Part shown: piece by piece, positions 6,618 to 15,171 of the stretch | Position numbering within the stretch: the stretch's first letter is position 1 | Layout: the number at the start of each line of letters is the position of its first letter | Assembly (NCBI GenBank): GCA_002731375.1 | Contig: PCBT01000049.1 | Location: 53,700-89,904 of the forward strand | DNA length: 36,205 nucleotides | Direction of reading: 5' to 3' | DNA from: Rhodospirillaceae bacterium | Lineage (GTDB): Bacteria; Pseudomonadota; Alphaproteobacteria; GCA-2731375 | The notes under the pieces: generated by a model | Seen by the model: the letters and a program-made list of their open reading frames with translations, nothing else | The model's database searches: none | What the model was told of the DNA's origin: nothing | Program-made: the position numbers and the translations under genes

Positions 6618-6725
6618 GCGCTAACAGACCCGCAAATGCTGTAGCGCGCCATTTGCTTGCCGTAGCCGGGCTTCTTGGCCGCCGCCGTTCTTTTTCAAAT
6701 CAGCAGCCCGTTTGGGTGGCGTTAA

Positions 6726-7124
<399 letters not shown>

Positions 7125-7149: not shown

Positions 7150-7180
7150 CGGGATCGAAAAGTTAACCTTTTCGATCCCG
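7150..7180. repeat. Perfect 13-bp inverted repeat with 5-nt loop between nirS remnant and nirE
   Basis: CGGGATCGAAAAG (7150-7162) and CTTTTCGATCCCG (7168-7180) are exact reverse complements around the loop TTAAC. The RNA hairpin would be very stable. It follows the nirS stop by 25 nt and precedes nirE by 77 nt. No T-run follows in either direction, so it is not a classical rho-independent terminator; it may stabilise the 3' end of the former nirS message or act as an operator. Confidence 0.7.
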
Positions 7181-7257: not shown

Positions 7258-8061
7258 ATGACCAAAGCGAGTACAGTATTTCTTGTTGGCGCCGGACCCG
7301 GGGATCCGGAGTTGCTGACGATAAAGGCGCACCGGTTGCTGCAGGCCGCCGAAGTGGTGGTTTATGATCGCCTGGTCTCGGCCGACGTTCTGGCCCTGAT
7401 CCCGGCTGGCGCAACCCTTATCAGCGTTGGCAAACAGCCCCATAACCATCGCATTCCCCAGCCCGAGATCAACCAGTTGCTGGTCCGCCTGGCCAAGGCC
7501 GGCCGCAATGTCATCCGCCTGAAGGGCGGTGACCCCTATGTATTTGGCCGCGGTTCGGAAGAGGCCATGGCTCTGGTCGAAAATGACGTTCCTTTTGAAG
7601 TCGTGCCGGGCATTACCTCGGCCTCGGCCTGTTCGGCGTCCGTGGGCATGCCCTTGACCCATCGCGGTCTTGCTACCGGGGTGCGCTACTTGACCGGCCA
7701 TTGCCGGGAAGACAGCGAGCTGAATTTTGACTGGCAGGGCCTGGCCGATCCATCAACCACGCTGGTAATTTATATGGGCATGGCCAATGTTGAACAGATT
7801 ACCGAGAATTTGATCAAGCACGGCGCCGATCCGAAATTGCCCGCCGCCGCCATCAACAATGGCAGCAGGCCCGCGCAAAGGCACATCGTAACCACGCTGG
7901 AAAGCCTTGCCGGCGATGCCAAGGCTGCCGATTTCAATGGACCGGTATTGTTCGTCGTCGGTCAGGTCGTGGCATTGCATGCCATATTGGGCGCGGAAGT
8001 GGATGCCAAGCAAGATCAGACCCAAGACGATGAACAGCCGAATTCCGCTGTGGGCAGCTAA
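7258..8061 (+). CDS. nirE: Uroporphyrinogen-III C-methyltransferase (SUMT), NirE type
   Basis: Transfers two methyl groups from S-adenosylmethionine to uroporphyrinogen III, giving precorrin-2, the branch point to heme d1, siroheme and cobalamin. The 267-residue protein is intact: VGAGPGDPELLTIKA (residues 10-24), VVYDRLVS, LKGGDPYVFGRG, VVPGITSASA and GMPLTHRG are all family signatures for SAM binding and the active site. It carries no CysG oxidase/chelatase domain. Position after nirS and before nirC matches the Paracoccus-type nirSECF order, hence NirE rather than CobA, although the two are the same enzyme. GGGGGA precedes the ATG. The last 32 nt overlap nirC. The C-terminal tail (about 250-267) is polar and unconserved. 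It is retained while d1-specific genes are gone, so it probably now serves siroheme or B12. Confidence 0.93.
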   Translation: MTKASTVFLVGAGPGDPELLTIKAHRLLQAAEVVVYDRLVSADVLALIPAGATLISVGKQPHNHRIPQPEINQLLVRLAKAGRNVIRLKGGDPYVFGRGSEEAMALVENDVPFEVVPGITSASACSASVGMPLTHRGLATGVRYLTGHCREDSELNFDWQGLADPSTTLVIYMGMANVEQITENLIKHGADPKLPAAAINNGSRPAQRHIVTTLESLAGDAKAADFNGPVLFVVGQVVALHAILGAEVDAKQDQTQDDEQPNSAVGS

Positions 8062-8389
8062 GGCCTGCCTGACCGCCGTCCTGCTTGCGACTTCGATCAC
8101 TCCGGTCTGGAGTGAAGACAGTATCCCGGCAACGCGGCAGAAGGAGTTGCTGTATCTCTTGCAACAAGATTGCGGTTCCTGCCGTGGCCTGACCTTCAAG
8201 GGTGGCCTGGGCACGCCTCTGTTGCCGGCAAATTTAGCGGATAAACCCGATGACGCCTTGGTGGAAATCATCATGCAGAGCCTGCCGGGCAGGCCCATGC
8301 CGCCCTGGCGCTTTCTGCTCGAGGAGAAGGAAGCCGCCTTTCTGGTACGGGCCATGAGGACGAGCCAGACGCTTAAAGTTGAACAATGA
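8030..8389 (+). CDS. nirC: NirC-like cytochrome c with a defective heme motif (CXXCR)
   Basis: NirC is a small periplasmic cytochrome c acting in heme d1 maturation or electron delivery to NirS. This 119-residue ORF starts at ATG 8030 inside the end of nirE, has a signal peptide (residues 1-27, ending around PVWSE), then the expected segment QQDCGSCRGLTFKGGLGTPL, and a late MPPW motif whose Met would be the sixth heme ligand. The heme-attachment motif reads C-G-S-C-R instead of CXXCH: the codon is CGT where CAT or CAC is expected, a single A-to-G change from CAT. Without the His, covalent heme c attachment and iron ligation should fail. The rest of the frame is open, so the lesion is recent or the protein is non-heme. 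Placed between nirE and the nirF leader, as in intact clusters. Confidence 0.75.
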   Translation: MNSRIPLWAAKACLTAVLLATSITPVWSEDSIPATRQKELLYLLQQDCGSCRGLTFKGGLGTPLLPANLADKPDDALVEIIMQSLPGRPMPPWRFLLEEKEAAFLVRAMRTSQTLKVEQ

Positions 8390-8399
8390 AAGACGAACG

Positions 8400-8642
8400 A
8401 TGAGAATTTTCGCCTTCATCACCTGTGCCTTGCTATGCCTTTCCGTCACGGCCAATGCACAGACGGAAACCCTGCGCGGGACCGGCAATTCGGACCTGGT
8501 ATCGATCTGGGACATGGATGGGGCCCTGGTGGTCTATGATGCCAAGACCTTGAAGGAAGTGAAACGCATCTCCATGGTGAAGCCGTCGGGAAAATACAAT
8601 GTCTTCAGCAAAATCACTCTGTCGGCGGGAACCTCCCATTAG
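8400..8642 (+). pseudogene. nirF-nirN deletion fusion: nirF leader joined in frame to the C-terminus of nirN
   Basis: An 80-codon ORF starting 10 nt after the nirC stop. Residues 1-21 are a signal peptide and ETLRGTG (24-30) matches the start of mature NirF, the periplasmic d1 biosynthesis protein. From about residue 31 the sequence jumps to NSDLVSIWDMDGALVVYD, then LKEVKRISMVKPSGKYNV, and ends with KITLSAGTSH, which is the end of NirN, the d1-binding dehydrogenase, not of NirF. In Paracoccus-type clusters nirF and nirN bracket nirD/L/G/H and nirJ, so one deletion removed almost all of nirF, all the genes between and almost all of nirN. The fusion is in frame, so a short exported peptide could still be made, but it has no d1-binding propeller. 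A TTG at 8379 would add seven residues. Confidence 0.8.
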
Positions 8643-9396
8643 ACATCAAGACGGTAATGGGGCTGGGAAGGACGATAGCCCGCTAATCGTGGTCGGTCAC
8701 GGTACGGGCAGTGCCGCTGGCGATGCCACCCTGCATGCCTTGGCCGCCAATTTGGCGGCGATGGGCAATTTTGATCAGGTCAGGGCAGCGGTGCTGCGCG
8801 GCACGCCGGCCCTGGCGGATGTTCTGCACCAGCTTGAGGCCGCGCCGGGCGGTCAATCGCTCTGCCTGCTGCCGTTCATGATGAGTGACGGCGTGACCTC
8901 CCGGCAGCACCTGATGGAGGCTATGGCGCATATTCCCGGTTCACGAAAGCCGTTTTTGTGGTCCCCCCTCGGCCTAAACCCCGGCCTGGCCGAATTGATC
9001 TCCAGGCGGGGTAAAAACTCGGCCCGGGCGGCGGCCTGGCCGGCGGCGGATTGCCGTCTGCTATTGATTGCCCATGGTTCGCTGCAAGATCCGGCCTCGG
9101 CCCTGGCCGCGCGGACGCACCAGGAACGCATCGCCGCCCAGCATGAATTCGCCGCCGTCGAGGTCGCGTTTCTAGATCAACCACCACATTTGGACGACGT
9201 TCTGGCCTGCTCCGGCCGTCCCTTGCTTGGTGTCGGCCTGTTTGCCGGCGAGGGACGTCATGGCGCGGAGGATATGAATCAGGCCTTTGCCCTAGCCACC
9301 TGTCCGGCCTGCTATTGCGGCACCATTGGCGGCGATGACGGTCTTGCCGCCCTGGCCCTTGAACACCTGAAATCCAAGCCCATGGCGAGCCTCTAG
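8599..9396 (+). CDS. CbiX/SirB-family sirohydrochlorin chelatase-like protein
   Basis: About 265 residues in two related halves, each with an HG chelatase motif: LIVVGHGTGSAAGD near residue 30 and LLIAHGSLQDPASALA near 150. This is the long CbiX layout, in which a two-domain protein inserts Co2+ or Fe2+ into sirohydrochlorin. The segment LPFMMSDGVTSRQHL matches the second metal-site region. A Cys-rich CPACYCG stretch lies near residue 235. The start is uncertain: ATG 8599 lies inside the nirF-nirN fusion and residues 1-25 do not look conserved, so the true N-terminus may have been changed by the deletion. No better in-frame start is present before the first motif. The gene is otherwise intact and with nirE would make a cobalt- or iron-sirohydrochlorin branch. 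Confidence 0.8.
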   Translation: MSSAKSLCRREPPIRHQDGNGAGKDDSPLIVVGHGTGSAAGDATLHALAANLAAMGNFDQVRAAVLRGTPALADVLHQLEAAPGGQSLCLLPFMMSDGVTSRQHLMEAMAHIPGSRKPFLWSPLGLNPGLAELISRRGKNSARAAAWPAADCRLLLIAHGSLQDPASALAARTHQERIAAQHEFAAVEVAFLDQPPHLDDVLACSGRPLLGVGLFAGEGRHGAEDMNQAFALATCPACYCGTIGGDDGLAALALEHLKSKPMASL

Positions 9397-9446: not shown

Positions 9447-9499
9447 GGCGTCAAACCGCGCTTATGAATAGATTTACCTTCGAATTAGGAGTTGGCGGG

Positions 9500-10093
9500 T
9501 TGGCTAGTAGTTTAAAAAATAAAGCGCCGCGCCAGCGGGAACCACTGGTCCTGGAGCTGATTCCAGAGAACCTTTTGCGCGAGCCCATCGAATATATTTT
9601 TGCCGATCATTACCGCTTGCGCCAAATCATAGCCACCATGGATCGCTTGCTGACGGAGGGCGTTTATGCCCAACCGCCAACGGACGAGGCTATCGCCGCC
9701 GACATGGCGGTCATCCATGCCTATCTGCGGGACGAACTGTCACCTCACATCGCCGACGAGGAAGACGATTTGTTTCCCCGTCTAGAGCTGCGCAGCCCGG
9801 CCGATTACGAGACCAAGCAGATTCTGGCCACCTTGCATCAGGAGCACGAGGAAGATCTTGCCTTGATACAGCCTCTTGTGTCGGGCCATGCCGATTTATT
9901 GGCTGGGAAGCCCGTGGCAAACAAGGAGCTGTTCGAAACTTCCGTCGTCCGCTTCGTGGAAACCCAGCGGCGGCATATTGTCTGGGAAAACAATATTATT
10001 TTGCCCCTGGCCCGGCGCCGTTTCAGCGTCGAGGACATGGAGGAAATCGGTCGCGACATGGCAGCCCGGCGAGGCCTCGAATACCCGGCCTAA
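9500..10093 (+). CDS. Hemerythrin (HHE) domain protein
   Basis: A four-helix di-iron protein. Counting from the upstream ATG 9464, likely ligands are His49 (FADHYRLR), His95 with Glu99 (PHIADEEDDLFPRL), His125 or His128 (LHQEHEED), His171 and Glu175 (RHIVWENNIILP). HHE proteins bind O2 or NO or repair iron centres, and are often co-regulated with denitrification genes. I place the start at TTG 9500 because AGGAG (9487-9491) lies 8 nt before it and because the FNR-type box at 9433-9446 predicts a transcript beginning near 9481, downstream of ATG 9464. ATG 9464 has no ribosome-binding site and would add 12 residues. It follows the CbiX-like gene by about 100 nt and was probably part of the nitrogen-oxide regulon. 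Confidence 0.88.
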   Translation: MASSLKNKAPRQREPLVLELIPENLLREPIEYIFADHYRLRQIIATMDRLLTEGVYAQPPTDEAIAADMAVIHAYLRDELSPHIADEEDDLFPRLELRSPADYETKQILATLHQEHEEDLALIQPLVSGHADLLAGKPVANKELFETSVVRFVETQRRHIVWENNIILPLARRRFSVEDMEEIGRDMAARRGLEYPA

Positions 10094-10154: not shown

Positions 10155-10613
10155 ATGAACGAGATGTTGGCGAAAATCGCTGGGACGCTGGCCGGCGAAC
10201 TAAAGAATACAGGCGGCATGATAAAAATCGCCCATTTGCCGCCTTGCAGGGGCGATGCGGCTCATTTGCAGATGGGTTTCAGTAATCTTCTTGGCAATGC
10301 CATCAAATACCGCCACCCCGACCGTCCTCGCGCCGTAAAGGTATCGGGAGAGGTAATTGGAGGCCGCGCGGTCTATCAGGTCTCGGATAATGGCATGGGG
10401 TTCGCCGCTGAACATTACCAGCATGTTTGGGATCTGTTCCATCGCCGGGTTCTGATGGGCGAGACGGAGGGCCAAGCTCTTGATCTAACCCTGGTCCGGC
10501 GCATCGTGGAGCACCACCACGGACGGATATTCCTGGAATCGGAAGAAGGCATCGGCAGCCGGTTTATTGTCGCCCTGCCTCCCGCCACCGACGTTGGCGC
10601 GACTACAGAATAA
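10155..10613 (+). pseudogene. Headless histidine kinase: HATPase domain fragment with a degenerate G2 box
   Basis: 152 residues holding only the ATP-binding domain of a phytochrome/PAS-type sensor kinase. The N box is NLLGNAIKYRHP (44-55), the G1 box is DNGMGF (78-83) and the F region is WDLFHR (92-97). The G2 box, normally GxGLGL, reads GQALDL (106-111), then continues normally as VRRIVEHHHGRIFLESEEGIGS. No dimerisation/phospho-acceptor helix, sensor domain or His box is present: the frame is closed by a TGA about 21 nt before the ATG. There is no ribosome-binding site. The most likely reading is a kinase truncated by deletion and drifting. The 3' end overlaps the convergent hslU gene by 11 nt. 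Confidence 0.7.
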
Positions 10614-14424: not shown

Positions 14425-15171
14425 ATGAATTTGTACCCCGCCATTGACCTGAAGGACGGTGACTGCGTCCGTCTGCTGCGCGGCGAAATGGCCGCTGCCA
14501 CGGTCTTCAACAACGACCCCGCCGCCCAGGCGCGTTCGTTTCAGGACGCGGGCTGCCAATGGCTACACTTGGTGGATCTGAACGGCGCCATCGAGGGCCG
14601 GCCCGTTAATGGCGAAGCAGTCAGCGCGATCCTTGCCGCCCTGAGCATTCCCGTGCAGCTGGGCGGCGGCATTCGGGACGAGGCCACGGCCCTGGCCTGG
14701 TTGGAGGCCGGCATTCGCCGCGTCATCATAGGTACCTTTGCCTTGCGCGAACCAGACCTGGTGGCCGATCTGTGCCGCCGTCATCCAGGCCGTGTCGCCA
14801 TCGGCATTGATGGCCGGGATGGCCGCGTCGCGGTCGAGGGCTGGGTGAAACAGTCCGATAGGCCGGTACTTGATCTGGCCCGCCATTTCGAAGGTGCCGG
14901 CGCCGCCGCCATCATCTACACCGACATTGACCGCGACGGTGCGATGCAGGGCCATAACGTCGCGGCGACCTCCACCCTGGCGGAAGGAATTTCGACGCCG
15001 GTGATTGCCTCGGGTGGGGTCACCGGTCTGGACGACCTGCATGCCTTGCGCGCCGCCGCCGACACGGGCATCAAGGGGGGCATCGAAGGCGTTATTGTTG
15101 GCCGGGCGCTCTACGATGGTGCTTTTGATGTTGCCGCCGCCCTGAATGCCTTGACCGGCGGGGAAGCCTAG
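14425..15171 (+). CDS. hisA: ProFAR isomerase HisA
   Basis: Amadori rearrangement of ProFAR to PRFAR in histidine synthesis. 248 residues in a TIM barrel from ATG 14425 ([17 protein letters not shown]). Catalytic Asp8 lies in PAIDLKDG and the second catalytic Asp in [12 protein letters not shown] (about 170). Phosphate-binding motifs are QLGGGIRD and [11 protein letters not shown]. The frame also extends far upstream through hisH, but that part is noise. Its stop is 2 nt before the hisF start. Confidence 0.97.

Follow-up and report, generated by a model that had tools for sequence, protein, structure and literature searches.

A nirF–nirN chimera as the deletion scar of a collapsed heme d1 cluster with retained nirE and cbiX in a Rhodospirillaceae bacterium

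An 80-codon open reading frame (ORF) in the genome of a Rhodospirillaceae bacterium is a deletion scar in which the start of nirF is joined in frame to the end of nirN. It lies in the remains of a cluster for cd1 nitrite reductase and its cofactor heme d1, which has collapsed through three large deletions while sparing nirE and cbiX. We place the probability of this explanation as a whole, including that the protein encoded by the scar has no function of its own, at about 0.88; the scar itself is clear, and the sparing of the two genes is what we infer. The finding belongs to a known kind, the clean scar of a gene loss, and is instructive in which genes were spared. The window, i.e., the whole stretch of 36,205 nucleotides analyzed here, is G000:C49:53700-89904, where G000 denotes the source assembly of 4.55 Mb in 115 contigs, which is estimated to be 96.2% complete. 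We compared it with a genus set of 11 genomes including G000 itself, and used the cluster locus of congener G004 (L018) as a proxy for the ancestor, so that all deletion sizes are approximate. The nir genes of G004 are 100% identical to those of JABIWH010000018.1 from the Rhodospirillaceae metagenome-assembled genome (MAG) SI072_bin90. The features of the decayed cluster are as follows, in coordinates of the window:

6627–6758, minus strand: apbE C-terminal remnant, residues 308–351 of 351
6744–6760, no strand: junction region of deletion 1; GGCGGCGGC marks either end of the deletion in G004, and the sequence of the window has diverged there
6756–7124, plus strand: nirS 3′ remnant, residues 462–583 of 583, with one internal TAG
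7258–8061, plus strand: nirE, uroporphyrinogen-III C-methyltransferase (SUMT), intact; the sole SUMT found in G000
8033–8389, plus strand: nirC, frame open, CGSCR in place of the heme motif CGSCH and further genus-invariant residues altered
8400–8642, plus strand: chimeric nirF′::′nirN ORF, 80 residues, signal peptide and about one beta-propeller blade
8400–8494, plus strand: nirF-derived part (signal peptide, LRGTG), from nirF alignment and shuffles and a match to the start of G007 nirF
8495–8500, plus strand: deletion junction CCTGGT, found in nirF and nirN of both G004 and G007 in the same codon phase (Leu-Val twice)
8501–8642, plus strand: nirN-derived 3′ end, from blastn to the nirN of relatives and PDB 6rtd
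8599–9396, plus strand: cbiX, sirohydrochlorin ferrochelatase homolog, starting in the nirN tail and overlapping it by 44 nt, stop codon included
9464–10093, plus strand: hemerythrin-domain gene, retained from the same cluster
10155–10613, plus strand: histidine-kinase remnant, start codon joined in frame to the C-terminal HATPase domain at ATGAAC

The ORF runs from an ATG at 8400 to a TAG at 8640–8642, with a longer, 87-residue version from a TTG at 8379, and sits directly 3′ of nirC, the position of nirF in relatives. Its last 52 residues correspond to the C-terminal end of P. aeruginosa NirN (PDB 6rtd_A, residues 458–509 of 509, E = 5.6e-16), and its 3′ part also to the end of the Pfam Cytochrom_D1 domain (positions 323–367 of 368, 51.8 bits). 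At the other end, the first 33 residues align to the N-termini of congener NirF proteins with BLOSUM62 scores of 70 (G007) and 57 (G004). The NirF score was reached by none of 1000 protein shuffles for G004, G007, G002 and G009, by one for G010 and by 114 for G006, and a genome search matched query residues 2–55 to the start of G007 nirF (E = 4.9e-5). When the nirF-like 105 bases were subjected to plain DNA shuffling, the observed value was equalled or exceeded in 0, 1, 2 and 4 of 500 shuffles for G007, G004, G009 and G010, and in 45 and 62 for G002 and G006; two of the six congeners thus lend no support at the DNA level, which may be expected given that a signal peptide evolves fast. The sequence-only reading, which had described an 80-codon ORF with a NirF-like start and a NirN-like end, is borne out by these matches. 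It had also called for a search for microhomology at the breakpoint, and comparison with relatives uncovered the 6-bp repeat CCTGGT. The position of the breakpoint shifts: it had been set near codon 30 (8488–8495), and the actual junction lies just to the right, in codons 32–34.

The product of the ORF belongs to neither parental family. NirF is a single-domain, eight-bladed propeller of ~400 residues, of which the ORF retains ~32 N-terminal codons within its 80; NirN requires an N-terminal cytochrome c domain and an eight-bladed propeller, of which only the last ~48 of 529 codons are kept, without a CxxCH motif. With a signal peptide and about one of eight blades, the product is too short, as we infer, to form a heme d1 protein. 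The features that identify a scar are present instead: the two source genes are separate in relatives, the intervening genes are absent from the assembly, selection on the remnants is relaxed and no conserved family of such fusions was found in the genomes and loci searched.

Full-length NirS and NirJ are encoded by six of the 11 genus genomes (G002, G004, G006, G007, G009 and G010), and these six congeners have in common a collinear nir cluster, which in G007 is split over two contigs. At L018 it begins with apbE and a nosR-like gene, both on the minus strand, followed by nirS, nirE, nirC, nirF, nirD, nirL, nirG, nirH, nirJ, nirN, cbiX, the genes for the hemerythrin-domain protein and the histidine kinase, and hslU on the minus strand; the order nirS-E-C-F-D-L-G-H-J-N that had been predicted is thus seen in the relatives. 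The nosR-like protein scores under the curated NosR cut-off (750.7 vs. 1000 bits). A blastn alignment of the window with L018 shows three large gaps. Deletion 1, from the apbE tail to mid-nirS, is bounded by GGCGGCGGC at L018 positions 829 and 5484, 4,655 bp apart, and took most of apbE, the nosR-like gene and residues 1 to ~461 of the 583 of nirS, i.e., about four fifths of it. Deletion 2, from nirF to nirN, is bounded by CCTGGT at 7362 and 13082, amounts to 5,720 bp and left ~32 of the 400 codons of nirF and ~48 of the 529 of nirN. Deletion 3 lies within the kinase gene, where ATGAAC at 14730 and 16206 delimits an in-frame loss of 1,476 bp; G007 showed no ATGAAC at the left end of this deletion. 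A shared stretch of at least 6 bp occurs in 0.22% of random junction pairs (200,000 draws on L018). An extra 121 bp between nirE and nirC in G004 was not counted as a fourth deletion, being more likely an insertion in G004, as nirC of G002 overlaps nirE in the same way as in the window. The sequence-only reading had ascribed the end of heme d1 synthesis to a single deletion. This holds insofar as nirD, nirL, nirG, nirH and nirJ are gone, and is incomplete insofar as the fusion is one of three large deletions and nirE was kept. The fusion deletion need not have been the event that ended nitrite reduction, since deletion 1 cost the locus the nosR-like gene, the bulk of apbE and some four fifths of nirS.

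Between the nirS remnant and nirE, at 7151–7179, there is a perfect 12-bp inverted repeat, which is also found in G004, and in G002 with different paired bases; it probably acts as a conserved terminator of nirS, with nirE transcribed from a promoter of its own. FNR-type boxes, searched with consensus patterns, were found upstream of nirS in none of the five congeners examined, and the idea that deletion 1 freed nirE from FNR-type control is therefore unsupported.

The remnants have also decayed by point changes. We counted synonymous and nonsynonymous changes on the G000 and G004 branches with G007 as the outgroup, scoring a change to a stop as nonsynonymous and comparing the branches with a Fisher test. 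The nirS and nirN remnants together gave 7:8 (synonymous:nonsynonymous) in G000 vs. 15:0 in G004 (p = 0.0022), and the nirS remnant alone 4:5 vs. 12:0 (p = 0.006). The nirN tail taken alone showed no significant relaxation (3:3 vs. 3:0, p = 0.46), and there was no nonsynonymous excess in the whole of nirC (14:8 vs. 12:7, p = 1.0), the kinase remnant (24:20 in G000 vs. 10:9 in G004) or the hemerythrin gene (28:27 vs. 16:20). NirC nevertheless lacks a CxxCH heme attachment motif: it has CGSCR where all six congeners and PDB 6tp9 have CGSCH, and has thus lost the heme-ligand histidine, besides carrying substitutions (Leu→Phe, Gly→Ser and Thr→Arg) at residues invariant across the six congeners.

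As far as the assembly is complete, heme d1 synthesis and the cd1 nitrite reductase have been lost from G000. The established pathway, as described in PMC13168839, proceeds from siroheme by way of NirDLGH, NirJ, NirF/NirC and NirN; there, NirF is described as an eight-bladed propeller that introduces keto groups together with NirC, and NirN as converting dihydro-heme d1 to heme d1. A Cytochrom_D1 search of G000 returned nothing above the cut-off except the nirS and nirN remnants, and no other nirS, nirF or nirN was found in the assembly. The PF17805 search for nirD/L/G/H gave no match in G000 vs. four in each of the six nirS-positive congeners, and a NirJ ortholog is absent, the three matches having 36%, 30% and 29% identity and being of a type also found in nirS-negative congeners. 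The genome search suggested by the earlier reading thus came out as it expected, with nirD/L/G/H/J missing both between the two gene ends and elsewhere in the assembly. Given the established pathway, the absence of nirDLGH, a NirJ ortholog and any other nirS, nirF or nirN means that heme d1 cannot be made in G000, although a second nir cluster could be missing from the assembly. Replacement of nirS by a recognizable nirK is ruled out by the lack of any NirK above the curated cut-off in the 11 genus genomes.

G000 also encodes, at L126:6037-7788 (minus strand of G000:C57), a homolog of the clade III lactonase-type nitrous-oxide reductase that exceeds its cut-off (NF052460, 788 vs. 700 bits), on account of which the organism may reduce N2O despite an apparent inability to reduce nitrite by NirS or NirK. 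A COX1-family protein of ~579 residues with a CuA-type neighbor is present in all six nirS-positive genus genomes (G002, G004, G006, G007, G009 and G010; loci L109, L114, L115 and L117–L119) and in none of the five nirS-negative ones, which makes it a candidate for a nitric oxide reductase that disappeared together with nirS. Two divergent COX1-family matches in G000 (G000:C26:566-1891 and G000:C48:71784-73109) have identical scores and lie near contig ends, pointing to either a duplication or a contig end that is repeated.

A ctaD tree of the 11 genus genomes pairs G000 with G007 (UFboot 98) and sets G004 beside them (98), within nirS-positive lineages. By synonymous distance, G000 is nearer to G004 in nirE, cbiX, hslU and hslV, and nearer to G007 in the nirS remnant. 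Under either placement, these comparisons put the nir loss in G000 inside a group of nirS carriers. In G001 and G005, which have no nir genes, the same place reads msrB-HAD-...-cbiX-hslU; their cbiX without nir could mark either the final stage of the same process or a stage that preceded the arrival of the nir genes.

We searched for the fusion in 61 relatives (11 with a match) and 385 genomes of the class (22 with a match), two sets that overlap, and in a scan of GTDB r220 contigs that yielded 38 named loci and from which records of G000 itself were possibly excluded. The whole fusion (residues 1–87) is confined to G000 in the two genome sets and occurs in none of the 38 loci. ORF lengths were measured at 48 loci (L005–L014 and L024–L061, with at least four contigs counted twice), and in 45 of them the match lies within an ORF of at least 492 residues; the short exceptions are L036, L058 and L060. 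L036 and L060 are NirN genes cut by contig ends, the latter with a frame change as well. Three loci in which the match begins at residue 4 (L030, L039 and L055) were dismissed as further fusions, being the ends of NirN ORFs of 528, 949 and 693 residues, and so was a 169-residue open frame in G129, where a change of frame breaks NirN in two next to a nirJ frame. This split NirN (L132:1174-2645) is either a frameshifted nirN or a sequencing error.

L058 (JAJPEP010000026.1, a Thiobacillus sp. MAG) has a full-length nirS frame of 576 residues followed by a frameshifted nirC, after which the N-terminus of nirF is joined to nirF residues 248–366, ~40 bases and a nirN tail (L058:7420-10153). The ~40 bases resemble what follows nirF in L039 and L056; nirD/L/G/H/J were not found within the 18.75-kb locus. 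We rejected it as a second instance of the same nirF::nirN join, as the nirF piece and the ~40 bases precede the nirN tail; its layout reads as an independent, stepwise nirC-nirF...nirN collapse. In literature on nirF/nirN, heme d1 clusters and nirS loss, no nirF/nirN deletion scar is described in titles and the beginnings of abstracts, which is weak evidence that such a scar is so far unreported.

Of the genes that remain, nirE and cbiX look intact and constrained. NirE scores 306.3 bits against the SUMT model TIGR01469 (cut-off 185), and its gene has a dN/dS of 0.10 relative to G004, with a branch ratio like that of G004 (34:12 vs. 16:7). The other two SUMT matches in G000, at 28% and 34% identity, are accounted for by CobM and CobI, encoded in the cob cluster on the same contig as the window. 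A second SUMT (40–42% identity) is present in G001, G002, G003, G005, G008, G009 and G010, and was not found in G000, G004, G006 and G007, the last of which is only 84% complete. In G002, G009, G010 and G001 this second SUMT sits between flanking cob stretches; the same flanks, without cobA, are ~90 bp apart in G000 (L123:4360-4449) and ~107 bp apart in G007 (L135:10307-10414). With the cob-cluster copy missing too, nirE is the sole SUMT found in G000. The line of G000 and G007 has thus lost cobA. That it was not found in G004, where the nir cluster persists and whose corresponding cob flank lies outside the stretch compared, suggests that this loss preceded the nir collapse. For comparison, P. 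denitrificans is reported to have two or more SUMTs, one being nirE and another lying near the B12 genes, and to use CbiX as its siroheme ferrochelatase (PMC4063343). G000 has four matches to the siroheme-reductase family; the set differs from that of the congeners, and contamination is possible.

The cbiX product scores 42.3 bits against PF01903 (cut-off 22), and its alignment with 4ccs from Paracoccus (E = 8e-9) matches both essential histidines (His127 and His187; PMC4063343) by a hand count; it is predicted to make siroheme. Its selection regime is unchanged (26:21 on the G000 branch vs. 22:19 on the G004 branch). The sole in-frame ATG upstream of the CbiX core in the window is that at 8599, within the nirN tail, the only alternative being a GTG two codons before the GHGT motif. 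This embedded ATG is present in all seven genus loci and opens into cbiX in six of them; the exception is G004, where the embedded frame closes after 21 codons and cbiX has a closer ATG of its own at L018:13244. In G009, the cbiX frame also has possible starts farther upstream. We scanned 43 loci, of which 40 gave a row, for the Asn codon that builds the embedded ATG: it is AAT in 8/8 cases with a cbiX-like motif after nirN, these being the seven genus loci (four seen in both scans), which are not independent, and L011, vs. 12/35 other NirN ends. An overlap of cbiX and nirN, of 43 bp, has been described in Roseobacter denitrificans (PMC4063343); it is thus already known, and what is new is its retention by a deletion scar. 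As in the alphaproteobacterial CbiX represented by 4ccs, the gene in the window follows nirN with an overlap of ~43 bp and keeps the positions of the two histidines; unlike there, it has outlived the d1 genes and its start sits in the scar of a truncated nirN.

The overlap raises the question of whether the fusion is itself under selection as a translational leader, such that translation through the nirN tail would bring ribosomes to the embedded cbiX start. The conserved ATG, the bias toward AAT and the published overlap in Roseobacter speak for it. Against it, the overlap is no better conserved than the rest of the tail (4/44 vs. 8/98 mismatches to G004), the genus loci are not independent of one another, G004 and G009 have other possible cbiX starts, and an in-frame join has a 1 in 3 chance, which also makes it worthless as evidence of function in general. 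We consider such a leader role conceivable but rather unlikely. Doubtful, and a little more so, is the broader idea that heme d1 clusters repeatedly collapse between nirF and nirN, with an outcome shaped by the demand for tetrapyrroles: this would occur in lineages that have come to rely on nirE and cbiX as the sole source of precorrin-2 and siroheme, with the chimera kept as a leader for the cbiX start.

The MAG-like assembly, its 6.66% contamination and the single N positions in some of its contigs invite another explanation, in which the organism has an intact cluster and repeats were joined during assembly; yet the window has no N, the repeats at the junctions are just 6–9 bp long, and the cob cluster lies on the same contig, as in G004. 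Such an artefact would also leave aside the independent lesions, namely the TAG in nirS, the CGSCR of NirC and the nonsynonymous excess in the remnants, and the lack of NirJ orthologs and PF17805 from the entire assembly, and we regard it as highly improbable. The open frame with its plausible signal peptide could further be taken for a real small secreted protein with one NirF-like and one NirN-like end, and the sequence-only reading had held that homologs of the 80-residue protein in many genomes would make it a family rather than a scar. In the genomes and loci searched, no homolog of the whole protein turned up outside G000, and the partial matches are those of long ORFs, two contig-cut NirN genes and the separately decayed cluster of L058. 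Moreover, the DNA on either side of the junction aligns to two G004 genes 5.7 kb apart, and we give this possibility practically no weight.

The preferred reading, a deletion scar in a collapsed cluster, would start from an ancestor with a complete nirS-E-C-F-D-L-G-H-J-N-cbiX cluster. Illegitimate recombination at the 6-bp repeat would have removed 5.7 kb and joined nirF codons 1–32 to the last ~48 codons of nirN; both propeller genes read the repeat as Leu-Val in the same codon phase, and the frame would have been kept by chance. Of two more short-repeat deletions, one would have removed the nosR-like gene together with the greater part of apbE and roughly four fifths of nirS, and the other the greater part of the histidine kinase. 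The collapse would have halted at genes still under selection: nirE, as the last SUMT after the loss of cobA, would have to feed both siroheme and B12 synthesis, and cbiX would make siroheme and starts within the nirN tail that was kept. Thus, nirE and cbiX probably survived because the cell still needs both for siroheme and B12.

Set against the nirSECFDLGHJN clusters of proteobacteria, both ends of the ORF, the gene order and the neighbors match the intact cluster of the relatives; the window differs in having no nirD, nirL, nirG, nirH or nirJ, in keeping less than one tenth each of nirF and nirN, in its truncated nirS with a stop and in a nirC without the heme histidine. G000 also resembles the partial denitrifiers, i.e., genomes with only part of the pathway (PMC10359470, PMC12569097, PMC4250227), in that its nitrite reductase is gone and an N2O reductase homolog is kept. 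Unlike in those cases, the breakpoints and the spared genes are visible in G000, and the accessible portions of PMC10359470 and PMC12569097 contain no description at the level of breakpoints. Partial denitrification is usually inferred from the presence or absence of genes; here the deletions, the point decay and the spared genes can all be read. A match to nirE, nirC, cbiX or Cytochrom_D1 alone should not be taken as a sign of nitrite reduction. For the organisms themselves, the pattern suggests a rule: when the cd1 nitrite reductase is lost, nirE and cbiX would persist if they are the sole route to siroheme and B12.
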